41,693 nucleotides of DNA, taken from Pseudomonadota bacterium (lineage in GTDB: Bacteria > Pseudomonadota > Gammaproteobacteria > Burkholderiales > Burkholderiaceae_C). The notes beneath the pieces are model-generated. The model saw only the letters and a program-made list of their open reading frames with translations. It ran no database searches and was not told the DNA's origin. Shown one piece after another: positions 28,398 to 41,693 of the stretch (within the stretch, counting starts at the first letter, position 1; each line of letters begins with the position of its first letter). Location: NCBI GenBank assembly GCA_031119395.1, contig JAVHYA010000032.1, positions 1 to 41,693 on the forward strand, given 5' to 3'. The translations under genes were made by a program, and so were the position numbers.

Positions 28398-28597
28398 CGG
28401 GCGGCATCATAGGCGCGGGGCCTGCCGCCCGACCCCGTGCGCTGGTGACGCTTTGCATCCGTCGTCCCCATCGGTGGCGCCTGCGGCGGAATTGGTAACG
28501 GATGTGACGAATTGGCCCGCAACGCCCGCTGCACCTGCGCTGCGGGCCGATCGCACTTTGCATGCCTCGCACGGGCGAGGCCCTTACGATCCCCCGG

Positions 28598-29899
28598 ATG
28601 AGCATGGATGAACAGACGAACGCACGCCGCCACGTGGTGGTGATCGGCGCGGGCGCGATCGGCTGCGCGAGCGCGATCGAGGCCCTGCGGGCAGGTCTTC
28701 GGGTGACGGTGGTCGAGCCCGGCGAACCCGGTGGAGAGCAGGCCACGAGCTACGGCAACGCGGGCTGGCTGTCTTCGCACTCGGTCGTGCCGCCCGCGCT
28801 GCCGGGTGCCTGGCGCAAGGTGCCGGGCTGGCTGGCCGATCCGCTCGGGCCGCTGGCGGTGCGCTGGGCCTATCTGCCGCGCGCGTTGCCCTGGCTGCTG
28901 CGCTACCTCGCCTCGGGCCGGACCGAGGCGCGCGTGCAGGCCATTGCCGATGCGCTGCGCACGCTGCTCGTCGACGCGCCGGCCCTGCATGCCCGGCTGG
29001 CCGCGGCGGCGGGCGTGCCCGAGCTGATCGAGCAGCGCGGCCTGCTGCACGTGTACCGCTCGCGCGAGGAATTCGACGGCGAGGCGCTGGCGTGGCGGGT
29101 GCGCGGGCGCACCGGCGTGCAATGGGAGGCATGGGACGCCGCCACCCTGCGCGCCCGCGAGCCCGACCTGGATGCCCGCTACACGCTGGGCATCCACGTG
29201 CCCGAGGCGGGCCACTGCCGCCAGCCCGGCGCCTACGTGGCGGCGCTGGCACGGCATGCGTCGGTGCTCGGGGCCGATTGGCACCGGGGCCGCGCCACCG
29301 GCCTGCGCATCGAAGGCGGCCGCCTGTGTGCCGTGCAGACCGAGCGTGGCGAGATCGCGGCCGACGCCGCCGTGATCGCCGCGGGCGCGCGCTCGGCACC
29401 GCTGGCGGCGGCGGCCGGCACGCCCGTGCCGCTCGAATCCGAGCGCGGCTACCACGTGATGCTGCAAGGCGCCGCCGCCGGCCCGCGCACGCCCACGATG
29501 GCGGCCGACGGCAAGCTCATCGTGCACGCGATGCGCGACGGCCTGCGCGCCGCGGGGCAGGTCGAGATCGCGGGCCTGGCCGCCGCGCCCGACTGGCGCC
29601 GCGCCGAGATCCTGCGGCAGCACCTGCTGCGCATGTTCCCGGCGCTCGAGGCGCAGGCCGGCGCGATCGAGGTGCGCCAGTGGCTGGGCCACCGCCCGAG
29701 CCTGCCCGACGGGCTGCCGTGCATCGGCCTGTCGCGCGCGAGCGAGGACGTCGTGCTCGCCTTCGGCCATGGCCACGTGGGTCTGGGCGCGTCGGCGCGC
29801 ACCGGCCAGTGGGTGGGGCGGCTGCTGGCCGAGCGCCGCGCCTGGCCCGCGCTCGCGCCCTTCGATCCGCGCCGCTTCCACGCACGCCACGCCGCCTGA
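28598..29899 (+). CDS. FAD-dependent amino-acid oxidoreductase (DadA-like)
   Basis: A 433-aa flavoprotein of the DAO superfamily. GAGAIG (18-23) in HVVVIGAGAIGCASAIEALR is the FAD-binding loop. SYGNAGWLSSHSVVPPALPG is the DadA-type signature, and the C-terminal FGHGHVGLGASARTGQWVG closes the FAD site. It probably oxidises a D-amino acid or another secondary amine, passing electrons to the respiratory chain. ATG 28598 was chosen (MSMDEQTN); ATG 28604 is also possible. Divergent from the P1 peptidase with a 200-nt gap in which I see no conserved element. Confidence 0.83.
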   Translation: MSMDEQTNARRHVVVIGAGAIGCASAIEALRAGLRVTVVEPGEPGGEQATSYGNAGWLSSHSVVPPALPGAWRKVPGWLADPLGPLAVRWAYLPRALPWLLRYLASGRTEARVQAIADALRTLLVDAPALHARLAAAAGVPELIEQRGLLHVYRSREEFDGEALAWRVRGRTGVQWEAWDAATLRAREPDLDARYTLGIHVPEAGHCRQPGAYVAALARHASVLGADWHRGRATGLRIEGGRLCAVQTERGEIAADAAVIAAGARSAPLAAAAGTPVPLESERGYHVMLQGAAAGPRTPTMAADGKLIVHAMRDGLRAAGQVEIAGLAAAPDWRRAEILRQHLLRMFPALEAQAGAIEVRQWLGHRPSLPDGLPCIGLSRASEDVVLAFGHGHVGLGASARTGQWVGRLLAERRAWPALAPFDPRRFHARHAA

Positions 29900-29944
29900 G
29901 GGGCGTGGCGGCGTGGCCGCATCCTGTGCGGTGCATGGCCAAGG

Positions 29945-29960
29945 TTTGACGCCTGTCAAA
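29945..29960. promoter_or_regulatory. FNR/Anr/FixK-type box upstream of the phaC cluster
   Basis: TTTGAC-GCCT-GTCAAA is a 6-bp perfect inverted repeat with a 4-nt spacer. It satisfies the relaxed FNR/FixK consensus TTGAY-N4-RTCAA. It lies 88 nt before the phaC ATG, a fitting distance for a class II promoter with a leader of about 55 nt (a transcription start near 29994 would place the box at -41.5). No good -10 is seen. Oxygen-linked activation is inferred; a CRP-like protein is the main alternative. Confidence 0.62.
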
Positions 29961-30048
29961 TTTCCGACCTGGGCGGTGGTCGGTCGATGCGGGTTCACCG
30001 CCTATCGTCGGTTCTGGTCGCATCTTTCCTGTTTCGGTCGATCCAGCC

Positions 30049-31776
30049 ATGACGCACGCCTCCCGCCCGCCCGACCTTTCGCACACCGCACCGTACGACG
30101 TGGAGGTGCGTGCTGCCCTGGCCCGGGCCACCGGGGCGCTGTCACCCGCTGCCGCGCTGCTCGCCGCGGTCGACTGGGCGGTGCACCTGGCCGTGTCGCC
30201 GGGCAAGCGCCTGCAGCTGGTGCAACTGGCGCTGCGCCTGCAGCGGCAACTGGCGCACGATGCCGGCGCGCGGATGATCGCGCCCCACGGTGTCGCCCCG
30301 CCGGCGCGGGCGCCCGACCGCCGGTTCGCGGCGCCCGAGTGGCAGCAGTGGCCCTTCTACCTCTGGCAGCGAAGCTTCCTGGCGACCGAGCGGTGGTGGG
30401 ACGCCGCGACCCACGACGTGTTCGGCGTCGAGAAGCACCACCAGGACCTGGTGGCCTTCGGCGCCCGCCAGTGGCTGGACATGTTCTCGCCCGGCAACCT
30501 GCCGTGGACCAACCCGCAGGTGGTGGCGCGCACGGTGCAGCAGGGCGGTGCCAACCTGTGGCGGGGCCTGTGGTACTGGGCCGAGGACCTGCAGCGCCTG
30601 GCCAGTGACGCGCCGCCGGTCGGCAGCGAGGCCCATCGTGTGGGCCAGACGCTCGCCGTCACGCCGGGCAAGGTGGTGCTGCGCAACGCGCTGATCGAGC
30701 TGATCCAGTACGCCCCGGCCACGCCCACCGTGTACCCGGAGCCGGTGCTCATCGTGCCGGCCTGGATCATGAAGTACTACATCCTGGACCTGTCCGCGCA
30801 GGACTCGCTGGTGAAGTACCTCGTCGGGCAGGGCCACACCGTGTTCTGCATCTCGTGGAAGAACCCCGGCGAGGCGGAGCGCGGCCTGGGCATGGAGGAC
30901 TACCTCGCGCTCGGCCTGAACGCGGCGCTCGATGCCGTGAACACCCTGTGCCCCGGGCGCAAGGTGCACGCGACCGGCTACTGCCTGGGCGGCACGCTGC
31001 TGGCCATCGGCGCGGCGGCCATGGCGCGCGACGGCGATGCGCGGCTGGCCACCACCACCTACTTCGCGGCGCAGACCGACTTCTCCGAGCCGGGCGAGCT
31101 GGGCCTGTTCATCGACGAGAGCCAGCTCAGCCTGCTGGAAGCGCAGATGCACGAGACCGGCTACCTCACCGCGCAGCAGATGGCCGGCGCCTTCAGCATG
31201 CTGCGCAGCTACGACCTGCTGTGGTCCCGCGTGGTCGGCGAGTACCTGCTGGGCGAGCGCCCGCCGATGAACGACCTGATGGCCTGGAACGCCGACGCCA
31301 CCCGCATGCCGGCGCGCATGCACTCCGAGTACCTGCGCCGGCTGTTCCTCGACGACGACCTGGCGGAGGGCCGCTTTCCGGTCGGCGGCCGGCCCGTCAC
31401 GCTGGGCAGCCTGCACCTGCCCACCTTCATGGTCGGCACCCTGACCGACCACGTGGCGCCCTGGCGCTCGGTGCACAAGCTGCACTTTCTCAGCCCGGCC
31501 GAGATCACCTTCGCGCTGACCAGCGGCGGGCACAACGCCGGCATCGTCAATCCGCCCGGGCCCGAGTCGCACCGGCGCTATCAGCTGCTCACGCGTCCTG
31601 CCCAGGGCCCCTACCTGGCGCCCGAGGAATGGCTGGCGCAGGCCCCCGAACATGCCGGCTCGTGGTGGCCGGCCTGGCAGCGCTGGCTGGCGGCCCATTC
31701 CGGCGCCCGGGTCAAGCCGCCGCGCATGGGCGCGGCCCTCGCGGATGCGCCGGGGCAGTACGTCCTGGAGAAATGA
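30049..31776 (+). CDS. phaC: Class I poly(3-hydroxyalkanoate) synthase
   Basis: A 575-aa polymerase that joins (R)-3-hydroxyacyl-CoA into polyhydroxyalkanoate on the granule surface. The catalytic Cys312 sits in GYCLGG (lipase-like box), with the Asp in VGTLTDHVAPW and the His in SGGHNAGIVNPPG completing the triad. EPVLIVPAWIMKYYILDLS and FCISWKNPGEAERG are PhaC signatures. The first 100 residues are divergent from PhaC1 of Cupriavidus, and there is no phaA or phaB beside it, so it is probably an additional paralogue. It opens the eight-gene run behind the FNR-like box and its stop is 1 nt from the next ATG. Confidence 0.93.
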   Translation: MTHASRPPDLSHTAPYDVEVRAALARATGALSPAAALLAAVDWAVHLAVSPGKRLQLVQLALRLQRQLAHDAGARMIAPHGVAPPARAPDRRFAAPEWQQWPFYLWQRSFLATERWWDAATHDVFGVEKHHQDLVAFGARQWLDMFSPGNLPWTNPQVVARTVQQGGANLWRGLWYWAEDLQRLASDAPPVGSEAHRVGQTLAVTPGKVVLRNALIELIQYAPATPTVYPEPVLIVPAWIMKYYILDLSAQDSLVKYLVGQGHTVFCISWKNPGEAERGLGMEDYLALGLNAALDAVNTLCPGRKVHATGYCLGGTLLAIGAAAMARDGDARLATTTYFAAQTDFSEPGELGLFIDESQLSLLEAQMHETGYLTAQQMAGAFSMLRSYDLLWSRVVGEYLLGERPPMNDLMAWNADATRMPARMHSEYLRRLFLDDDLAEGRFPVGGRPVTLGSLHLPTFMVGTLTDHVAPWRSVHKLHFLSPAEITFALTSGGHNAGIVNPPGPESHRRYQLLTRPAQGPYLAPEEWLAQAPEHAGSWWPAWQRWLAAHSGARVKPPRMGAALADAPGQYVLEK

Positions 31777-31777
31777 C

Positions 31778-32548
31778 ATGGACCTGTTCTCCCTCGCCGG
31801 CCGCAAGGGCCTGGTGGTCGGCATCGCCAACGAGCACAGCATCGCCTGGGGCTGCGCGCGCGCATTCCGCGCCGCCGGTGCCAAGCTGGCCGTGACCTGG
31901 TTCAACGACAAGGCGCGGCCCCACGTGGAGCCGCTGGCACGGCAGCTGGACTGCCCCATCGCCCTGCCGCTGGACGTGGAGCAGCCCGGCCAGATGGAGG
32001 CCCTGTTCGAAGTGGTCGCCGCGCAGTGGGGGCGGCTGGACTTCGTGCTGCACTCCATCGCCTTCGCGCCCAGGAGCGACCTGCACGGCCGCGTGGTCGA
32101 TTCGTCGCGCGAGGGTTTCGCGCGGGCCATGGACATCTCCTGCCATTCCTTCGCGCGCATGGCGCACCTGGCCGAGCCGCTGATGAAGGACGGCGGCAGC
32201 CTGATGACCATGAGCTACGTGGGCGCGGAGGAGGTCATTCCCGACTACGGCCTCATGGGGCCGGTGAAGGCCGCGCTGGAGGCCAGCACGCGCTACCTCG
32301 CGGCGGAGCTGGGGCCCCAGGGCATCCGTGTCAACGCCGTCTCGCCCGGGCCGCTGGCCACGCGCGCGGCCTCGGGCATCCCGAACTTCGACGCGCTGCT
32401 GGAAAGCGCGCGCCAGCGCGCGCCGCTGCGGCGGCTGGTGGACATCGACGAGGTCGGTGCGCTGTGCACCTTCCTGGCCGGCGACGCATCGCGCGCCATC
32501 ACCGGCAGCACCCTGTATGTGGATGCGGGCTTCCACGTCCTGGGCTGA
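31778..32548 (+). CDS. fabI: Enoyl-[acyl-carrier-protein] reductase (FabI type)
   Basis: A 256-aa NAD(P)H-dependent reductase. KGLVVGIANEHSIAWGCA is the FabI nucleotide-binding turn, and Tyr157-x6-Lys164 (in EEVIPDYGLMGPVKAALEAS) is the catalytic pair that separates FabI from other SDRs (E. coli Tyr156/Lys163). GGAG (31767-31770) precedes ATG 31778. It differs in detail from housekeeping FabI (LHSIAFAPRSDLHGRVVDSS) and sits in a PHA operon, so it may be a specialised paralogue acting on enoyl-CoA or enoyl-ACP linked to PHA precursors or redox balance. FabI type clear, physiological role inferred. Confidence 0.88.
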   Translation: MDLFSLAGRKGLVVGIANEHSIAWGCARAFRAAGAKLAVTWFNDKARPHVEPLARQLDCPIALPLDVEQPGQMEALFEVVAAQWGRLDFVLHSIAFAPRSDLHGRVVDSSREGFARAMDISCHSFARMAHLAEPLMKDGGSLMTMSYVGAEEVIPDYGLMGPVKAALEASTRYLAAELGPQGIRVNAVSPGPLATRAASGIPNFDALLESARQRAPLRRLVDIDEVGALCTFLAGDASRAITGSTLYVDAGFHVLG

Positions 32549-32552
32549 GCGC

Positions 32553-34010
32553 GTGCGGCGCCGCCTTGCGTGCCGGACCGTGAGCGCGCCGGCGGCAGCG
32601 CTGATGCTCGCGGGCTGCGCGTCGATGGCGCCGCCGCCGACGCTGCCCGAGCCGCCGGTGCCGGCGCAGTTTCCGATGGCCGGCCCGGCGGTGGAGGCCG
32701 GGGCGCCGGCATCGGCGGCCGCGCTCGCCTGGAGCGACGCCTTCCCCGACCCGCAGCTGCACGCACCGATCGCGCTGGCACTGGCCCACAACCGCGACCT
32801 GCGCGCTGCGGCCCTGCGGGTGCAGGAGGCGCAGGCGCAGCGCCGGATCCAGGGCGCGGAGGCCTGGCCCGCCGTGGGCGCCTCCATCGACACGCAGCGT
32901 GCGCGGGTGCCCGGCGACCTGAACGCGAGCGGCCAACCGATCGTGAGCAGCCAGTACCGCGTGGGCCTGGGCCTGGCGGATTGGGAGCTGGACTTCTGGG
33001 GCCGTCTGCGCAGCCTGGACGACGCGGCGCTGCACAACGAAATGGCCAGCGCCGAGGCCTGGCGCGCCGCCGCCCTGTCGATCGTCGGCCAGGTGGTGCA
33101 GGGCTGGCTGGCCCTGCGCGAGCTGGACGAGCGCCTGCGGCTGGCGCGCGAGGCCGTCGACAGCCGCAACGAGTCGCTGCGCATCTTCACGCGCCGTGTC
33201 GAGGTGGGCGCCACCTCCCGCCTGGACCTGGCCCAGGTGCGCGTGCTCGCCGAGCAGGCGCGTGCGCTGAGCGCGCAGTTGGCGCAGCAGCGGGCGCAGC
33301 AGGCCAATGCGCTGGCGCTGCTGGTGGGCGCGCCCCTGCCGCCGGCCATGGCCGAGCCGCCCGCGGACCCACGGCTGCCCGAGCGGGTGGTCGCGCCGGT
33401 GGCCGCCGGCCTGCCTTCGCAGCTGCTGGCCGACCGGCCGGACATCGCCTCGGCCGAGCACCAGCTGCGCGCGGCCCATGCCAGCATCGGTGCCGCACGC
33501 GCGGCCTTCTTCCCGCGCATCGCGCTCACCGGCAGCCTGGGCACGGCCAGTGCCGAGCTGGACCACCTGTTCCACAGCGGCAGCCGCGCCTGGGCCTTCG
33601 CCCCGAGCGTGTCGCTGCCCCTCTTCACCGCCGGGCGCCTGCGCGCCAGCCTGGACCTGGCCGAGCTGCGCCGCGACATGGCGGTGGCGGCCTACGAGAA
33701 GGCCATCCAGTCCGCCTTCCGGGATGTGGCCGATGCGCTGGCCGCCCGCCGCTGGCTGGCCGACCAGCTGGCCGTGCAGCGCGAGGCCCTGGCCGCGCAG
33801 TCCGAGCGCGCGCGCCTGGCGCGGCTGCGCTACGACGCCGGATCGGCCGCCTTCCTGGAGGTGCTGGACGCGCAGCGCGACCTGCTGGCGGCCGAGCAGC
33901 AGCGCGTGCAGACGCAGCGCGCGCTGCTGTCCTCGCAGGTGGCCCTGTACACCGCGCTGGGCGGCGGCTCGCGCGTGCTCGCTGCCGCCGGCGCATCTCC
34001 TCGTCCCTGA
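32553..34010 (+). CDS. Outer-membrane efflux lipoprotein (NodT/OprM family)
   Basis: A 485-aa TolC-like outer-membrane channel. I chose GTG 32553, 4 nt after the fabI stop, because it gives a proper lipoprotein signal (three Arg, an Ala-rich core, LAGC with Cys22); GTG 32580 is an alternative. The mature part holds two OEP repeats: WSDAFPDPQLHAPIALALAHN, WELDFWGRLRSLDDAALHNE, RPDIASAEHQLRAAHASIGA, FFPRIALTGSLG and SLPLFTAGRLRASLDLAEL. It would form the exit duct for the HlyD/RbbA/YhhJ pump that follows. An outer-membrane component joined to a yhiI-rbbA-yhhJ set gives a complete envelope-spanning exporter. Confidence 0.88.
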   Translation: MRRRLACRTVSAPAAALMLAGCASMAPPPTLPEPPVPAQFPMAGPAVEAGAPASAAALAWSDAFPDPQLHAPIALALAHNRDLRAAALRVQEAQAQRRIQGAEAWPAVGASIDTQRARVPGDLNASGQPIVSSQYRVGLGLADWELDFWGRLRSLDDAALHNEMASAEAWRAAALSIVGQVVQGWLALRELDERLRLAREAVDSRNESLRIFTRRVEVGATSRLDLAQVRVLAEQARALSAQLAQQRAQQANALALLVGAPLPPAMAEPPADPRLPERVVAPVAAGLPSQLLADRPDIASAEHQLRAAHASIGAARAAFFPRIALTGSLGTASAELDHLFHSGSRAWAFAPSVSLPLFTAGRLRASLDLAELRRDMAVAAYEKAIQSAFRDVADALAARRWLADQLAVQREALAAQSERARLARLRYDAGSAAFLEVLDAQRDLLAAEQQRVQTQRALLSSQVALYTALGGGSRVLAAAGASPRP

Positions 34011-34033
34011 CTCCCTTCCCGAGGCCGCGTGCG

Positions 34034-35101
34034 ATGAATGCGAAGAACAGATGGCTTGCCGCCCTGGCCGTGCTGGCGCTGGCCGCCGCCGGCGTGTGGG
34101 TGTGGCAGCGGCTGCAGCCTCAAGGGCCCGGCGAAGGGCTGGCCAGCGGCAACGGCCGCATCGAGGCCACCGAGGTGGATGTGGCCACCAAGCTGGGCGG
34201 CCGCGTGCAGGACATCCGGGCCGAAGAGGGCGCTTTCGTCCGGGCCGGCGAGCTGCTGGCGACCATGCAGGTCGATGCACTCGAGGCCCAGCGTGCGGAG
34301 GCGCAGGCCCGGCTGCAGCAGGCCCACACCAATGTGGCCGCCGGCGCCGCCCAGGTGGCCATGCGCGAGAGCGACCGCCAGGCCGCGCAGGCGGTCGTGG
34401 TGCAGCGCGACAGCGACGTCGATGCCGCCCAGCGCCGGCTGGGCCGCTCGCAGGTGCTGTCGGCGGAGGGCGCGGCCTCGGTGCAGGAGACCGACGACGA
34501 CCGCGCCCGGGTGCGCAACATGCAGGCGGCCGCCGGCGCCGCGCGCGCCCAGGTCGCAGCCGCGCAGGCGGCGGTGGAGGCGGCCCGGGCACAGCTGGTG
34601 GGCGCGCGCTCGGCGGTCACGGCGGCGCAGGCCACGCTGGCCCGGGTGGAGGCCGACATCGCCGACAGCCAGCTCACGGCGCCGCGCGACGGCCGCGTCC
34701 AGTTCCGCGTCGCGCAGCCGGGCGAGGTGCTGGGCGCGGGCGGGCGGGTGCTCAACCTGGTGGACCTGTCGGACGTCTACATGACCTTCTTCCTGCCCGA
34801 GACGGTGGCCGGGCGGGTGGCGCTGGGCAGCGAGGCGCGCATCGTGCTGGACGCCGCGCCGCAGTACGTCATTCCGGCCCGCATCTCCTTCGTGGCCGCC
34901 ACCGCGCAGTTCACGCCCAAGACCGTGGAAACCGCCAGCGAGCGGCAGAAGCTCATGTTCCGCGTCAAGGCGCAGATCGACCGCGAACTGCTGCGCAGGC
35001 ACCTGGCCCAGGTCAAGACCGGCCTGCCGGGCGTGGCCTGGGTGCGCGTCGATCCCCAGGTGCCGTGGCCGCCGCAGCTGGCGGTGAAGGTGCCGCAGTA
35101 G
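34034..35101 (+). CDS. HlyD/YhiI-type periplasmic membrane-fusion protein
   Basis: A 355-aa adaptor subunit. One N-terminal membrane segment (about residues 8-24, AALAVLALAAAGVWVW) is followed by the barrel-sandwich half EVDVATKLGGRVQDIRAEEG, a long alpha-helical hairpin rich in Ala/Gln/Arg (about 80-210), the second half QLTAPRDGRVQFRVAQPGEV and a beta-barrel (NLVDLSDVYMTFFLPE). This matches E. coli YhiI/YbhG, the partner of RbbA/YhhJ-type ABC exporters. It links the inner-membrane ABC transporter to the outer-membrane lipoprotein encoded just upstream (23-nt gap). Confidence 0.88.
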   Translation: MNAKNRWLAALAVLALAAAGVWVWQRLQPQGPGEGLASGNGRIEATEVDVATKLGGRVQDIRAEEGAFVRAGELLATMQVDALEAQRAEAQARLQQAHTNVAAGAAQVAMRESDRQAAQAVVVQRDSDVDAAQRRLGRSQVLSAEGAASVQETDDDRARVRNMQAAAGAARAQVAAAQAAVEAARAQLVGARSAVTAAQATLARVEADIADSQLTAPRDGRVQFRVAQPGEVLGAGGRVLNLVDLSDVYMTFFLPETVAGRVALGSEARIVLDAAPQYVIPARISFVAATAQFTPKTVETASERQKLMFRVKAQIDRELLRRHLAQVKTGLPGVAWVRVDPQVPWPPQLAVKVPQ

Positions 35102-35113
35102 CGCCGGTCCCGC

Positions 35114-37855
35114 ATGAGCGCCACCGCCCCGCCCGTCGTGCGCCTGCAGTCGCTGCGGCTGCGCTATGGCCGCAACGAGGCGCTGCGCGGCGTGTCGCTG
35201 GACGTGCCCGCCGGCCGCATGGTCGGGCTGATCGGGCCCGACGGCGTGGGCAAGTCCAGCCTGCTGTCGCTGGTGGCCGGGGCACGCCGCGTGCAGCAGG
35301 GGCGGGTGGAGGCGCTGGGCGGCGACATGGCGGACCCGCGCCACCGCCAGGCCGTGTGCCCGCGCATCGCCTACATGCCGCAGGGCCTGGGCCGCAACCT
35401 CTACCCCACGCTGTCGGTGGAGGAGAACCTGCAGTTCTTCGCCCGCCTGTTCGGCCACGGCGCGGCCGAGCGGCGCCGGCGCATCGACACGCTGACGCGC
35501 AGCACCGGCCTGGCACCCTTCCTGGCGCGGCCGGCAGGCAAGCTCTCGGGCGGCATGAAGCAGAAGCTGGGCCTGTGCTGCGCACTCGTCCATGATCCCG
35601 ACCTGCTGATCCTCGACGAGCCCACCACCGGCGTGGACCCGCTGGCGCGCGCCCAGTTCTGGGACATGATCGAGCGCATCCGCGCAGCGCGTCCCTCGAT
35701 GAGCGTGATGGTGTCCACGGCGTACATGGACGAGGCGCGGCGCTTCGAATGGCTGGTGGCGATGGACGACGGCCAGGTGCTGGCCACCGGCACGCCGGAC
35801 GAGCTCCTGGCGCGCACCGGCACCCCGCAGCTGGAACAGGCCTTCATCCACCTGCTGCCCGAGGCCAAGCGGCGCGGCTGGGCGCCGGTGGAGATCGCAC
35901 CGCTGGCGGCCTCGGACGACGACATCGCCATCGAAGCGCGCGACCTGACCATGCGTTTCGGCGATTTCACGGCGGTGGACCACGTCAGCTTCCGCATCCG
36001 GCGCGGCGAGATCTTCGGCTTCCTGGGCAGCAACGGCTGCGGGAAGTCGACCACCATGAAGGTGCTCACCGGGCTGCTGCCCGCGACCGAAGGCCAGGCC
36101 TGGCTGTTCGGCCGCGCGGTCGACCCCCGGGACCTCGACACCCGCCGCCGCGTGGGCTACATGTCGCAGGCCTTCTCGCTCTACGGTGAATTGACCGTGC
36201 TGCAGAACCTGCTGCTGCATGCCCGCCTGTTCCACCTGCCCGTGGCCGAGCGGCCGGCGCGCGTGCGCGAGATGCTCGAGCGCTTCGGGCTGGACGAGGC
36301 GCAGCACCGGCTGCCCGAGAGCCTGCCGCTGGGCATGCGCCAGCGCCTGTCGCTGGCCGTGGCCATGGTGCACCGCCCCGAGCTGCTGATCCTGGACGAG
36401 CCGACCTCGGGCGTCGACCCGATCGCGCGCGACGGCTTCTGGCGGCTGCTGGTGGAGCTGTCGCGGCGCGACCGGGTGACCATCTTCGTGTCCACGCACT
36501 TCATGAACGAGGCCGAGCGCTGCGACCGCATGTCGATGATGCATGCCGGCCGCGTGCTCGACAGCGACCGCCCCGCGGCGCTGGTGCACAAGCGCGGCGC
36601 CGCCTCGCTGGAGGAGGCCTTCATCGGCTACCTGGTGGAGGCGGGCGCGGGCACGAGGGGCGATGCCGAAGCGGCGGCCCCGGCCGGCCCGGCCCCCGCG
36701 GCAGGCCCGCCGCCCGCACCGGCGCGGCACCGCGCCTTCAGCCTGCAGCGCCTGTGGAGCTACCTGTGGCGCGAGGCGCTGGAACTGCAGCGCGACCCCG
36801 TGCGCGCCACGCTGGCGCTGGCCGGCTCGATGGTGCTGATGTTCGTGATGGGCTTCGGCATCAGCATGGACGTGGAGAGCCTGCGCTACGCCGTGCTGGA
36901 CCGCGACCAGAGCACGCTCAGCCAGAACTATGCGCTCAACCTCGCGGGCTCGCGGTACTTCGCGCAGCGGCCGCCGCTCGCCAGCTACGACGAGCTGGAC
37001 CGGCGCATGCGCAGCGGCGAGCTGGCCCTGGCGCTGGAGATCCCGCCGGGCTTCGGCCGCGACCTGCTGCGCGGGCGGCCGGTGCAGGTGGGGGCCTGGA
37101 TCGACGGCGCGATGCCGCAGCGCGCGGAGACGGTGCAGGGGTACGTGCAGGGCATCCACCAGCAGTGGCTGGCGGAGCAGGCGAACGAGCGCGGCCTGGG
37201 CAGCGCCGCCGCCGTGGCGGTGCAGACCCGCTTTCGCTACAACCCCGACGTGCGGAGCCTGCCGGCCATGGTGCCGGCCGTCATCCCGATGCTGCTGCTC
37301 ATGCTGCCGGCCATGCTCACCGCGCTGGCGGTGGTGCGCGAGAAGGAGCTGGGCTCCATCGTCAACCTGTATGTCACGCCGGTCACGCGCACGGAGTTCC
37401 TCCTGGGCAAGCAGTTGCCCTACGTGGCGCTGGCGATGTTCAATTTCGCGTTGATGTGCGCGCTGGCCGTGACTGTCTTCGGCGTGCCCATGACCGGCAG
37501 CTTCGCGGCCCTGGCACTGGCGGCGCTGCTGTTCTGCCTGGCGTCCACCGGCATGGGCCTGCTGGCCTCGGCGGTCACGCGCAGCCAGATCGCCGCCATG
37601 TTCTTCGCCATGATCGGCACCATCATCCCGGCCCAGCAGTTCGCCGGGCTGACCGACCCGGTGTCCTCGCTGCAGGGCACCGGCCGATGGATCGGCGAGA
37701 TCTACCCGGCCACCCACATGTTCGCCATCAGCCGCGGCGTCTTCAGCAAGGCGCTGGGGCTGGCCGACCTGCACCAGGCGCTGCTGCCGCTGGCGGCCTC
37801 GGTGCCGGTGATCCTGGGCATCGCGATCGTGCTGCTGAGGAAGCAGGACCGATGA
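35114..37855 (+). CDS. rbbA: RbbA-like ABC transporter with two ATPase domains and ABC-2 permease
   Basis: A 913-aa fused exporter subunit. ABC domain 1 has Walker [10 protein letters not shown] (41-49), [11 protein letters not shown] and [16 protein letters not shown] domain 2 has GSNGCGKST (305-313), the degenerate C-loop [11 protein letters not shown] and [13 protein letters not shown], the same relaxed motif as E. coli RbbA. From about 545 to the end comes an ABC-2 membrane domain ([20 protein letters not shown] near the start, five further segments, [20 protein letters not shown]). E. coli RbbA was first described as a ribosome-bound ATPase, yet its architecture is that of an efflux pump. 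ATG 35114 is 12 nt after the adaptor gene; the stop overlaps yhhJ by ATGA. Confidence 0.9.
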
Positions 37856-38991
37856 AGCACGCATGGCGCCGGCACCTGGCCAACATCCTGCGCCTGGGCG
37901 TCAAGGAACTGTGGAGCCTGTGGCGCGACCCGGTGATGCTGGTGCTCATCGTCTACACCTTCACCGTCTCGGTCTACACCGCGGCGCGGGCACTGCCCGA
38001 GACGCTGCACAACGCACCCATCGCCATCGTCGACGAGGACGCCTCGCCGCTGTCCGCGCGGATCGCCTCGGCCTTCTACCCGCCGCACTTCACCCGCCCG
38101 GCCATGGTGCCGCTGGCCGAGGTCGATCCGGCCATGGACGCCGGCCGCACCACCTTCGTGCTGGTCGTGCCGCCGGGCTTCCAGCGCGACGTGCTCGCCG
38201 GCCGGGCGCCGGCGCTGCAGCTCAACGTGGACGCCACGCGCATGAACCAGGCCTTCTCGGGCAGCGGCTACGTGCAGCAGATCGTGCTGGCGGAGGTCGG
38301 CGAGTTCGTGCAGCGCTACCGCGGCAGCGCCGCGCCGCCGGTCGAGCTGGCCTTGCGGGCGCGCTTCAACCCCGCGCTGGAGAAGGCCTGGTTCGGCGCG
38401 CTGATGGAGATCATCAACCACGTGACGCTGCTCTCGCTCATCCTCACCGGCGCCGCGCTGATCCGCGAACGCGAGCACGGCACGCTGGAGCACCTGCTGG
38501 TCATGCCCGTGACGCCCACCGAGATCATGCTGGCCAAGGTGTGGTCGATGGGCCTGGTGGTGCTGGTGGCGGCCGGCACGTCGCTCGCGCTGGTGGTGCA
38601 GGGCGTCATGGGCGTGCCCATCGGCGGCTCGGTGCCGCTGTTCCTCGCCGGCGCCGCGCTGGCGCTGTTCGCCACCACGGCCATGGGCATCTTCCTGGCG
38701 ACCGTGGCACGCGACATGCCGCAGTTCGGCATGCTGATGGTGCTGACCATCCTGCCGCTGCAGATGCTCTCGGGCGCGCTGACGCCGCGCGAGAGCATGC
38801 CAGCCCTCGTGCAGACGGTGATGCTCGCGGCGCCCACCACCCACTTCGTGGAGCTGGGCCAGGCCATCCTCTATCGCGGGGCCGGGCTGGAGGTGGTGTG
38901 GAAGCCCTTCGTCTGGCTGCTGGCGATCGGCAGCGTGCTGTTCGCCGTGTCCCTCTCACGCTTTCGCAGGACCATCGGGCAGATGGCCTGA
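37852..38991 (+). CDS. yhhJ: ABC-2 type permease (YhhJ family)
   Basis: A 379-aa inner-membrane permease, partner of RbbA. One N-terminal helix (about 27-45, [19 protein letters not shown]), a large periplasmic domain (about 50-215), then five helices with the ABC-2 signatures [37 protein letters not shown] and [17 protein letters not shown]. It overlaps rbbA by 4 nt. With the preceding three genes it forms a complete exporter. The cargo is unknown; hydrophobic compounds or cell-envelope lipids are usual for this family. Confidence 0.88.
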
Positions 38992-39043
38992 GACGGACCG
39001 CCCTGCGACACTTCCTTCCCACCCGATCCAGGAGATCCACCCG

Positions 39044-40471
39044 ATGCATCCCCACGACGGCCCGGCGCCGGCCGGCCTCGGCCTGATCCGCAACCGCACC
39101 TTCGACGAGATCGCCGTCGGCGACAGCGCGAGCATCCAGCGCACGCTCACCGCGCAGGACATCCAGCTCTTCGCCGTGCTCTCGGGCGACGTCAATCCGC
39201 AGCACCTGGATGCGGAGTTCGCCGCCTCCACCCGCTTCCACGGCGTCATCGCACATGGCATGTGGGGCGCAGCGCTCATCTCCGCCGTGCTGGGCACCCG
39301 GCTGCCGGGGCCCGGCACCGTCTACCTGGCGCAGTCGCTGAAGTTCCTGCGCCCGGTGCGGGTGGGCGACACGCTCACCGTCGCCGTCACCGTGGCGGCG
39401 CGTGACGAGGCGAAGAAGCGCCTGACCCTCGCCTGCACGTGCGTCAACCAGGCCGGCGAGGCGGTGATCGAGGGCGAGGCCGCCGTGCTGGCGCCCACCG
39501 AGCGGATCGAGCGCCCCGCCGCCACGCTGCCCGAGGTGCGCATGAGCGCCGGCGGCGACGGCCTGCCGCGGCTGCTGGCGCACGTGCGGCCGATGGGCGC
39601 GATCCGCATCGCCGTGGTCCACCCCTGCGATGCGCTCAGCCTGGGCGGTGCGCTGGACGCACGCGACGCCGGCCTGATCGAGCCGGTGCTGGTCGGCCCG
39701 CGCGCCAAGGTCGAGGCCGCCGCGAAGGCGGCCGGCCTGGACCTGGCCGGCGTCGAGGTCGAGGACGTGCCGCACAGCCACGCCGCCGCTGCCCGCGCCG
39801 CCGAGCTGGCCGGCCAGGGCCGGGTGGAGGCGTTGATGAAGGGCAGCCTGCACACCGACGAGCTGATGGGCGCGGTGCTGCAGGCCGATGCCCACCTGCG
39901 CACCAAGCGGCGCCTGTCGCATTGCTTCCTGATGCAGACGCCGGCCTATCCGCGGCCCTTCATCATCACCGACGCGGCCATCAACATCGCGCCCACGCTC
40001 GAGGAGAAGGCCGACATCGTGCGCAACGCCATCGAGCTGGCGCACGCGATCGGCGTGGCGCAGCCGCGCGTGGCCATCCTGGCGGCGGTGGAGACCGTCA
40101 ATCCCCGCATGGCCGCCACGCTGGATGCCGCGGCGCTGTGCAAGATGGCCGAGCGCGGCCAGATCGCCGGCGGCGTGCTCGACGGCCCGCTGGCCTTCGA
40201 CAACGCCGTGTCGGCCGTGGCCGCGCGCGTCAAGGGCATCGAATCACCCGTGGCCGGGCAGGCCGACGTGCTGGTGGTGCCCGACCTGGAAAGCGGCAAC
40301 ATGCTGGCCAAGCAGCTCGAGTACATGGGCGACGCCGCGACCGCCGGCATCGTGCTCGGCGCGCGGGTGCCGATCGTGCTGACCAGCCGCGCCGATGCAC
40401 GCGATACGCGCATGGCCTCCTGTGCCATTGCGGTGCTGCTGGCGCACCGCTGGCGCACCAGCCCGCCGTGA
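39044..40471 (+). CDS. Bifunctional (R)-enoyl-CoA hydratase / phosphate acyltransferase
   Basis: A 475-aa fusion. Residues 15-155 form a MaoC/PhaJ-type hotdog hydratase in which SGDVNPQHLD puts Asp49 and His54 at the spacing of the PhaJ catalytic pair (Asp31/His36). Residues about 165-475 are a phosphate acetyl/butyryltransferase: IRIAVVHPCDALSLGGALDA, VEALMKGSLHTDELMGAVL, RRLSHCFLMQTPAYPRPFII, NIAPTLEEKADIV and VLVVPDLESGNMLAKQL. The first half would make (R)-3-hydroxyacyl-CoA for PhaC, the second would convert acyl-CoA to acyl phosphate for the kinase behind it. AGGAG lies 10 nt before the ATG. Gap of 52 nt after yhhJ. Acyl specificity unknown. Confidence 0.9.
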   Translation: MHPHDGPAPAGLGLIRNRTFDEIAVGDSASIQRTLTAQDIQLFAVLSGDVNPQHLDAEFAASTRFHGVIAHGMWGAALISAVLGTRLPGPGTVYLAQSLKFLRPVRVGDTLTVAVTVAARDEAKKRLTLACTCVNQAGEAVIEGEAAVLAPTERIERPAATLPEVRMSAGGDGLPRLLAHVRPMGAIRIAVVHPCDALSLGGALDARDAGLIEPVLVGPRAKVEAAAKAAGLDLAGVEVEDVPHSHAAAARAAELAGQGRVEALMKGSLHTDELMGAVLQADAHLRTKRRLSHCFLMQTPAYPRPFIITDAAINIAPTLEEKADIVRNAIELAHAIGVAQPRVAILAAVETVNPRMAATLDAAALCKMAERGQIAGGVLDGPLAFDNAVSAVAARVKGIESPVAGQADVLVVPDLESGNMLAKQLEYMGDAATAGIVLGARVPIVLTSRADARDTRMASCAIAVLLAHRWRTSPP

Positions 40472-40494
40472 GTGCGGACACGGGCGTGAACGCG

Positions 40495-41691
40495 ATGACC
40501 GACTCCTTCATCCTCGTTCTCAACTGCGGCTCGTCGAGCATCAAGTTCGCGCTCTTCGAGGCCGGCACGGCGCAGCCCGCGCGGCGGCCGGCGTGGAACG
40601 GCAAGGTGCAGGGCATCGGCGGCCCCGAGCCCGACTTCGGCGCGCGCGACGTGGCGGTGGCGCCCGTGCCGCTGGATGCGGACCACCCCTACCGGGCGGC
40701 GCTCGAACTCATCCGGCGGCACGCGCTGCGCTGGCTGGATGGCCGGCCGCTGGCGGCCGTGGCGCACCGCGTGGTGCATGGCGGCAGCCGGTATTTCCAG
40801 CCGGTGCGCGTCGATGCACGGGTGCTGGCCGACCTCAAGGGCCTCATCCCGCTGGCCCCGCTGCACCAGCCCTTCGCGCTGGAGGCGATCGAGATCCTGC
40901 TGGCCGAGCGGCCCGAGCTGCTGCAGGTCGCCTGCTTCGACACCGCCTTTCACCACACCCTGCCGCGGGTCGAGCAGATGCTGCCGCTGTCGTGGTCGGC
41001 CTGGGAGCGCGGGTTGCGCCGCTACGGCTTCCACGGCCTGAGCTACGCGTACATCGCCACCGCGCTGGCCGAGCGCCATGGCCGCGAGGAGGCGCAGCGC
41101 GCACGCACCGTCGTCGCGCACCTGGGCAGCGGCGCCAGCCTGTGTGCGCTGCAGGGCCTCGAGAGCGTGGCCACCACCATGGGCTTCTCGGCGCTGGACG
41201 GGCTGATGATGGGCACGCGCACCGGCGCGCTGGACCCCGGCGCCGTGCTGTACCTGATGGAGATCGAGAAGCTGAGCCTGGCCGAGGTCGGCCATGCCCT
41301 GTACCACGCGTCGGGCCTGCTGGGCATCTCGGGCCTGTCGAGCGACCCGCGCATGCTGCTGGCCCGCGAGGGGGAAGACAGCGAGGTCGGCGAGCGCTGC
41401 CGCGCGGCGCTGGAGCTGTACGTGCGGCGCATCGTGCGCGAGATCGGCGCCATGGCGGCGGTGCTGGGCGGGCTCGACCGGCTGGTGTTCACCGCCGGGG
41501 TGGGCGAACACAACGCGGCGATCCGCGCGCGGGTGGGCGGCGCGCTCGGATGGCTGGGCGTGGAGATCGACGACGCCGCCAACCGGGCCGATGCCATACG
41601 CATCAGCACGGCGAACGGCCGCGTCGACGTCGGCGTGGAGCCGACCAACGAGGAGTGGGTGGCGGCGCGCTGCGCGTGGGCGCTGGCTTGA
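40495..41691 (+). CDS. ackA: Acetate/propionate-family kinase
   Basis: A 398-aa ASKHA kinase that makes ATP and acetate (or another short acid) from acyl phosphate. LVLNCGSSSIKFALFE (Asn at the active site), AVAHRVVHGGSRYF, FDTAFHHTLPRVEQML (catalytic Asp), RRYGFHGLSYAYIA, VVAHLGSGASLCAL, GTRTGALDPGAVLYLM and VFTAGVGEHNAAIR are all present. The start may also be GTG 40468, which overlaps the phosphotransacylase stop by GTGA and adds nine residues; ATG 40495 fits the family start better. The stop is 2 nt from the window end. It completes the acyl-CoA to acyl phosphate to ATP route. Confidence 0.92.
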   Translation: MTDSFILVLNCGSSSIKFALFEAGTAQPARRPAWNGKVQGIGGPEPDFGARDVAVAPVPLDADHPYRAALELIRRHALRWLDGRPLAAVAHRVVHGGSRYFQPVRVDARVLADLKGLIPLAPLHQPFALEAIEILLAERPELLQVACFDTAFHHTLPRVEQMLPLSWSAWERGLRRYGFHGLSYAYIATALAERHGREEAQRARTVVAHLGSGASLCALQGLESVATTMGFSALDGLMMGTRTGALDPGAVLYLMEIEKLSLAEVGHALYHASGLLGISGLSSDPRMLLAREGEDSEVGERCRAALELYVRRIVREIGAMAAVLGGLDRLVFTAGVGEHNAAIRARVGGALGWLGVEIDDAANRADAIRISTANGRVDVGVEPTNEEWVAARCAWALA

Positions 41692-41693
41692 CG

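Follow-up and report, generated by a model that had tools for sequence, protein, structure and literature searches.

An RbbA-type exporter recurs beside polyhydroxyalkanoate and acyl-phosphate genes and shares with them a predicted FNR-controlled operon in a Burkholderiales bacterium

Why would a bacterium keep an exporter in the middle of a gene set for polyester storage? The question is raised by a 41,693-nucleotide stretch of DNA from a Pseudomonadota bacterium (Burkholderiales, Burkholderiaceae_C; assembly GCA_031119395.1, contig JAVHYA010000032.1), which we call the window at its full length. In it a perfect TTTGAC-N4-GTCAAA palindrome is followed by eight intact genes on one strand, the first of them beginning 88 nt beyond the palindrome (open reading frame and coordinate check). 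These are phaC for a polyhydroxyalkanoate (PHA) synthase, fabI for an enoyl-ACP reductase, a gene for an outer-membrane efflux lipoprotein (OEP), hlyD, rbbA, yhhJ, a phaJ-pta fusion and ackA, and with the starts used they are separated by 1, 4, 23, 12, -4, 52 and 23 nt (Table 1). Coordinates and family assignments bear out an earlier note on this DNA, which had reported the palindrome, the eight same-strand genes and their gaps; the last gap is 23 nt with the start used here. The reading that we favour, and hold to be rather probable, is that the window carries one FNR-activated low-oxygen operon whose exporter would rid the cell of some hydrophobic product or by-product of acyl or lipid type. 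It starts from what is observed: the gene content, the catalytic motifs, a conserved gene order, a box with promoter-like spacing, and a recurrent linkage of the exporter to PHA genes.

The linkage was surveyed in a sample of 200 genomes from the family. RbbA was found at E <=1e-100 in 40 of them and the full-length PhaJ-Pta fusion in at least 59. Among the matches listed, 27 genomes held both (the window genome counted, fusion fragments left out), and in 13 of these the two lay within 15 kb of each other, against 0.19 genomes expected by chance for a 4.3-Mb genome; the exporter is therefore not a chance insertion. The order phaC-(fabI)-oep-hlyD-rbbA-yhhJ-phaJpta-ackA is kept in 10 other genomes of the family, with the fabI match partial or missing in three. 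Elsewhere the exporter stands before phaC, as hlyD-rbbA-yhhJ-phaC-phaJpta in three loci (L112, L115 and L116; L numbers are our labels) and as oep-hlyD-rbbA-yhhJ-phaC in L142. The linkage is met again outside the family, and the best 80 of 593 confirmed RbbA loci supply further examples from named genera, which are Delftia, Variovorax, Alcaligenes, Achromobacter, Bordetella, Janthinobacterium, Pigmentiphaga, Curvibacter, Acidovorax, Luteimonas and Pseudoxanthomonas. Among the named records, the RbbA nearest to that of the window is from Pseudacidovorax sp. NFM-22. HlyD was matched at E <=1e-90 in 26 of 300 genomes of the order. An insertion by chance in the window genome only, an outcome that the earlier note had allowed for when it proposed a neighbourhood survey, is ruled out by the kept order and the linkage count.

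Plasmids of alpha- and gammaproteobacteria carry the same combination in other gene orders. Thirteen plasmid regions were picked as examples, not as a survey, from the matches listed (40 of 252 RbbA records and of 172 fusion records), three of them because the RbbA and fusion searches matched one record. On pSA2 of Novosphingobium resinovorum, a single strand reads phbB-hyp-OEP-HlyD-rbbA-permease-phaC-phaJpta-ackA-fabI-phospholipase A, where tblastn identifies as PhaC the protein annotated as "alpha/beta fold hydrolase". On the mobilizable pF1 of Sphingobium yanoikuyae (L244) the two halves are divergent and the unit is flanked on both sides by IS6100-type transposase genes. Similar sets are found on Rhizorhabdus wittichii pDC02 and on a Pseudomonas veronii plasmid, and phbB accompanies the exporter on Sphingobium baderi pDE1. 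Such loci could be explained by a mobile island on which useful genes collected, the linkage being maintained by transfer rather than by shared function. The conjugative plasmids among the carriers, the IS6100 copies of pF1 and a shared RbbA in two distantly named records are as this explanation would have it, but membership stays constant while gene order varies, the window operon has short gaps and one overlap, and a promoter-like box is kept in many Burkholderiales copies; we regard it as improbable. The two records in question (L165 and L174), named Variovorax sp. WDL1 and Stutzerimonas stutzeri KOS6, have identical RbbA and very similar neighbours, and reflect either a recent transfer or a contaminated assembly.

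On an RbbA tree (FastTree, 116 rows, 47 of them linked) there are 24 changes of the linkage label, of which starred branches force at least 14; gains and losses are not separated in these counts. Given the differing gene orders and the label changes, a single inherited insertion of the exporter is unlikely.

The element that would join exporter and enzymes in the window is the box. Taken alone it is moderately unusual, as at least one site with up to two mismatches occurs in 13 of 100 shuffles of the window, and at least two sites of a looser motif with up to one mismatch in 20 of 100. It becomes convincing because it is conserved upstream of the same operon in relatives. A perfect box lies within 400 bp 5' of the first gene in 23 of 41 nonredundant loci in which exporter and PHA genes are linked (window counted), whereas random windows give 4 of 2332; if one mismatch is allowed the counts are 30 of 41 and 60 of 2332, and a reversed pattern gave no perfect site and one site with one mismatch in the same 41 loci. 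This linked set includes eight loci with phasin, DUF3141 or phaB beside the exporter. Near-duplicates and loci with short upstream DNA dropped out of the count (7/48 linked, 11/69 unlinked and 1/27 exporter-less loci), and L230, with a distant ackA, was assigned to the unlinked loci by hand. PHA cores without an exporter have a perfect box in 8 of 26 cases.

FNR promoters are divided by the spacing of the box into class I and class II. In the window a possible -10 element, TATCGT, starts 43 nt past the 14-nt core of the box, which is roughly class I (-61.5) spacing, and the spacing is identical in the same-genus locus L077. In a sample preselected for a perfect box across all three kinds of locus (48 sites, of which four near-copies were removed; L090 and L097 are not near a first gene), TANNNT -10-like elements peak 21-24 nt after the box (18/44 sites, class II spacing), and six sites have one at 41-43 nt. 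The sequence TTGAYN4RTCAA is thus found at promoter spacing and is kept upstream, though not in every linked locus, and the earlier note's assignment of an FNR-type box holds at the level of sequence. That the box is there by mere chance is ruled out by its conservation and the -10 spacing. Within 29850-41693 no terminator-like or sigma-70-like consensus was found, which is weak evidence at shuffle means of 1.8 and 0.4.

The rest of the genome (5.14 Mb) offers a setting for such a box. It has ten perfect TTGAYN4RTCAA sites against three for the reversed control. Five others besides that of the window stand, by translations viewed by eye, at fnr/hemN, a cbb3 oxidase, a pair of genes for a P-type ATPase and a universal stress protein (USP), a Crp-like regulator and a cytochrome bc1 operon, and these positions fit an FNR regulon; the remaining four have no gene assignment, one of them being intragenic. 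An FNR candidate (L008) with a CxxCx5C start, its cysteines identified by eye, lies beside a perfect box and is one of 16 proteins with a cyclic-nucleotide-binding (cNMP-binding) match. Another cNMP-binding protein, L016, also has an FNR-like cysteine stretch.

Which genes keep company with the exporter was followed through the gene directly after yhhJ. This is a PHA or acyl-phosphate gene in 44 of 115 loci (phaJpta 16, phasin 15, DUF3141 9, phaC 3, ackA 1); in the others it is a USP gene (2) or unclassified (60), or the position falls at a contig end (5) or has no same-strand gene (4). Phasin and DUF3141 representatives were identified by Pfam, and the 60 unclassified neighbours, some of which are spurious frames, were viewed by eye; among them are a phasin-like gene in L231 and a ribosomal-L31-like gene in L137 and L139. 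In L165 (15154-17721) and L160 (14443-16818), a DUF3141 protein takes the place between exporter and PhaJ-Pta that PhaC has in other loci. In 28 of 117 loci a TetR-like gene is found close to the exporter operon, usually divergent from it and on its upstream side (for example L142, 5547-6293); neither the window nor the 9 kb that follow it on the contig gave a TetR-like match. USP-like matches occur in 7 of 117 exporter loci, including the same-genus L078, and in L154 the exporter stands among three USP-like genes and one Hsp20-like gene (by eye), with four perfect FNR boxes in 17 kb. Phospholipase A1-like genes are found near the exporter in L243, L244, L245, L247, L205 and L218, two of them confirmed by Pfam; L247 also has a PagL lipid A deacylase near the exporter.

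The presence of the exporter beside polyester genes in many bacteria suggests that the pump handles something made or released by PHA metabolism. One could go further and suppose that RbbA-YhhJ with HlyD and the channel form a dedicated exporter of acyl or lipid overflow within a mobile "store, burn or expel" module. Such a module would consist of PhaC or DUF3141, phasin, PhaJ-Pta, AckA and FabI; it would have spread over alpha-, beta- and gammaproteobacteria and been put under FNR in Burkholderiales, and its cargoes might be hydroxyacids, oligomers, fatty acids or membrane lipids. We put this forward tentatively, as a possibility with the balance somewhat against it.

Several observations weigh against a single FNR-activated operon with an acyl- or lipid-exporting pump. 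A perfect box is missing from 18 of the 41 linked loci, and 11 of them lack even a box with one mismatch. In the family sample and the named loci together, the exporter is linked in 48 of 117 loci, and in the other 69, some truncated by contig ends, no PHA gene was found; the named loci, moreover, are the best RbbA matches and not a random draw. The label clusters on the RbbA tree, with 24 changes against a mean of 36.6 for shuffled labels, so not every linkage is an independent event. The neighbour families that could be recognised were those of the window itself and USP, phasin, DUF3141, PhaB, Hsp20-like and TetR, so other partners of the exporter would be missed. The pointer to lipids is weak and comes from the six phospholipase loci. 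PHA genes are absent from the exporter operon in eight of the 13 plasmid regions (Burkholderia stagnalis, Paracoccus, Thauera, Azospirillum, Paraburkholderia caribensis, Nitrosomonas, Xanthobacter and Variovorax), that of P. caribensis having a perfect box just upstream, and in the five PHA-linked plasmid loci the 400 bp upstream contain no perfect box, the best site there being one with a single mismatch in P. veronii. In Accumulibacter, FNR boxes have been predicted at pta and phaC, and the phaC transcripts were unchanged after oxygen exposure, which speaks against a simple general rule (PMC6446978).

Some of these points would suit a pump for general low-oxygen or stress efflux that joined FNR-controlled operons for timing, sharing their promoter and not their pathway. 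Exporters without a detected PHA gene do have a perfect box more often than random windows (8/58 against 15/3283), L154 places the exporter in stress-gene company, and TetR-like genes such as those near many exporter loci are typical of pumps. Against this stand the frequent PHA or acyl-phosphate genes after yhhJ, though with 60 neighbours unclassified, and the plasmid loci, where the linkage is found in differing orders and without a perfect box, so that shared FNR control cannot explain it everywhere. We think a general pump unlikely, though it deserves serious attention. The linkage is wider than FNR control, and it is not obligatory.

How much of this unit has been described before? Its HlyD, RbbA and YhhJ parts are the same as those of the E. 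coli YhiI-RbbA-YhhJ system; E. coli is not known to have PHA genes. RbbA is named after a proposed ribosome role and is not known to have a settled transport substrate. The window protein scores well above the cut-off of its family (Table 1), the ribosome role being carried by the family name only. No paper in the literature searched contained both "rbbA" and "polyhydroxy", a statement that applies to that collection. Exporter and PHA genes do occur together in the low-oxygen-activated (lxa) locus of Burkholderia, of which the original account is said to be that of Sass et al. in 2013.

According to Table 2 of PMC4981469, the lxa locus holds ackA, USPs, phbB, phaC and pta, and in B. contaminans and B. 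multivorans genes for an outer-membrane lipoprotein, HlyD, an ATP-binding cassette (ABC) ATPase and a permease are only a few genes away from the PHA genes. Exporter and PHA genes rise together between two B. contaminans isolates. B. cenocepacia J2315, the strain in which low-oxygen induction of the locus was described, lacks orthologs of the four exporter genes and has other ABC transporter genes (BCAM0302-0304) (PMC4981469). The lxa locus is a much larger island than the unit of the window, the family of its exporter is unstated in the parts of PMC4981469 used here, and the gene names suggest a MacB-like pair; the link between exporter and PHA genes is not discussed in those passages. The window also differs from this locus in the universal stress and small heat-shock proteins that accompany the PHA and ackA genes there, as no USP or Hsp20-like match was found anywhere in the window or in the 9 kb that follow. 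Another paper, PMC3759415, concerns Burkholderia under low oxygen.

The enzyme core has closer counterparts. In group D1 of Burkholderia sensu lato, clusters of phaC, phaJ-pta, ackA and fabI have been described (PMC8231600), the same four enzyme genes as in the window, including the unusual PhaJ-Pta fusion, and the window has phaC, phaJ-pta and ackA in one cluster; an exporter is not mentioned in the available text of that paper, in which "efflux" and "fnr" have no use. In Herbaspirillum seropedicae, the dksA-phaC2-fabI-Hsero_2407 operon is a direct, activated target of Fnr1 (PMC5934665), and phaC2 is reported in an operon with pta-ackA (PMC8222739). A phaC-fabI pair under FNR activation, which in the window is a predicted one, is common to this operon and that of the window, and the main text of PMC5934665 uses none of the terms efflux, exporter, HlyD and ABC transporter. 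The D1 cluster has been compared with the PhoB-controlled ORF-pta-ack-fabI operon of Sinorhizobium meliloti (PMC8231600), and phaC2, pta and ackA of Herbaspirillum are up at high phosphate (PMC8222739). From this side the window could be taken for mainly a phosphate or acetyl-phosphate operon with low oxygen secondary, but the conserved FNR box at promoter spacing and the Fnr1 target in Herbaspirillum (PMC5934665) argue against it, and we consider it very improbable indeed.

The earlier note's suggestion of an undescribed unit therefore stands in part: a recurrent, rearranged and partly plasmid-borne RbbA-PHA unit was not met in the literature searched and is new in this sense, whereas the phaC-fabI-phaJpta-ackA core and its Fnr control are already known in kind and an exporter appears in the published table of the lxa locus.

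The products of the window genes were assigned to families with Pfam and NCBIfam (Table 1). PhaC has the catalytic triad C312, D467 and H495 by motifs and by alignment with 9knj, although its score remains below the cut-off for class I PHA synthases (TIGR01838, 508.7 against 622.65 bits). PhaC, FabI, PhaJ and AckA have the motifs for which they were checked; the one exception is an AckA pattern that was written too strictly and had no match. Among solved chains, PhaJ-Pta is closest to phosphate butyryltransferase 7vg9, and its first domain to enoyl-CoA hydratase 5cpg. RbbA consists of two ABC ATPase domains fused to an ABC-2 permease half (Pfam); regular expressions for its ATPase sites fit poorly for two of four motifs, and no claim is drawn from them. 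YhhJ is homologous to the C-terminus of RbbA, aligning to NF033858 positions 537-904 (E 3e-39). All parts of a tripartite ABC exporter are encoded by sequence family, namely an outer-membrane channel, an adaptor, two ATPase and two membrane halves, and OEP-HlyD-RbbA-YhhJ is predicted to be complete. The genome has at least one other PhaC (34% identical; a further match is 27% identical over 200-502) and a second FabI-like protein (41% identical to that of the window), so phaC and fabI of the window are not sole copies. Directly upstream on the same strand (28562-29899) lies a gene for a D-amino-acid-dehydrogenase-like FAD-dependent protein, which scores 175 bits with NF001933, under its cut-off of 383.

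Table 1. Features of the putative operon, in positions of the window.
Feature	Position	Strand	Basis
FNR/ANR-type box TTTGACGCCTGTCAAA	29945..29960	.	perfect TTTGAC-N4-GTCAAA palindrome, pattern match; similar upstream position in relatives
possible -10 element TATCGT	30003..30008	+	box-anchored comparison; motif only
phaC	30049..31776	+	PHA synthase; PF07167 and PF12551; TIGR01838 508.7 bits, under its cut-off; 9knj alignment
fabI	31778..32548	+	enoyl-ACP reductase paralogue; NF005717 451 bits (cut-off 337); YxxxxxxK intact
outer-membrane efflux lipoprotein, NodT type (OEP)	32553..34010	+	TIGR01845 390.6 bits (cut-off 210.05); PF02321
hlyD, HlyD-type periplasmic adaptor	34034..35101	+	PF13437, PF16576; TIGR01730 100.8 bits (cut-off 94.9)
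rbbA	35114..37855	+	NF033858 1565 bits (cut-off 1050); PF00005 twice, PF12698
yhhJ, second ABC-2 permease half	37852..38991	+	PF12698
phaJ-pta fusion, R-specific enoyl-CoA hydratase and phosphotransacylase	39044..40471	+	NF006045 755 bits (cut-off 282); SGDVNPQH motif
ackA, acetate/propionate-type kinase	40495..41691	+	PF00871; TIGR00016 325 bits (cut-off 293.4); solved relatives

In the FNR-activated operon that we favour, FNR would activate the eight genes at low oxygen. PhaJ and PhaC would convert enoyl-CoA to PHA, FabI would draw on NADH to reduce enoyl groups, surplus acyl-CoA would be converted by Pta-AckA to acyl phosphate, ATP and free acid, and the OEP-HlyD-(RbbA+YhhJ) exporter would expel a hydrophobic product or by-product of this metabolism, of acyl or lipid type. 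Co-transcription, dependence on FNR and the directions of flux we infer from the DNA, and an acyl- or lipid-type product as the substrate of the pump is a guess. The recurrent partnership of RbbA with PHA and acyl-phosphate enzymes nevertheless gives a concrete and testable lead to the substrate of RbbA. It suggests that an exit route accompanies the storage of polymer at low oxygen, which bears on the yield of bioplastic and on the survival of aerobes in anoxia.

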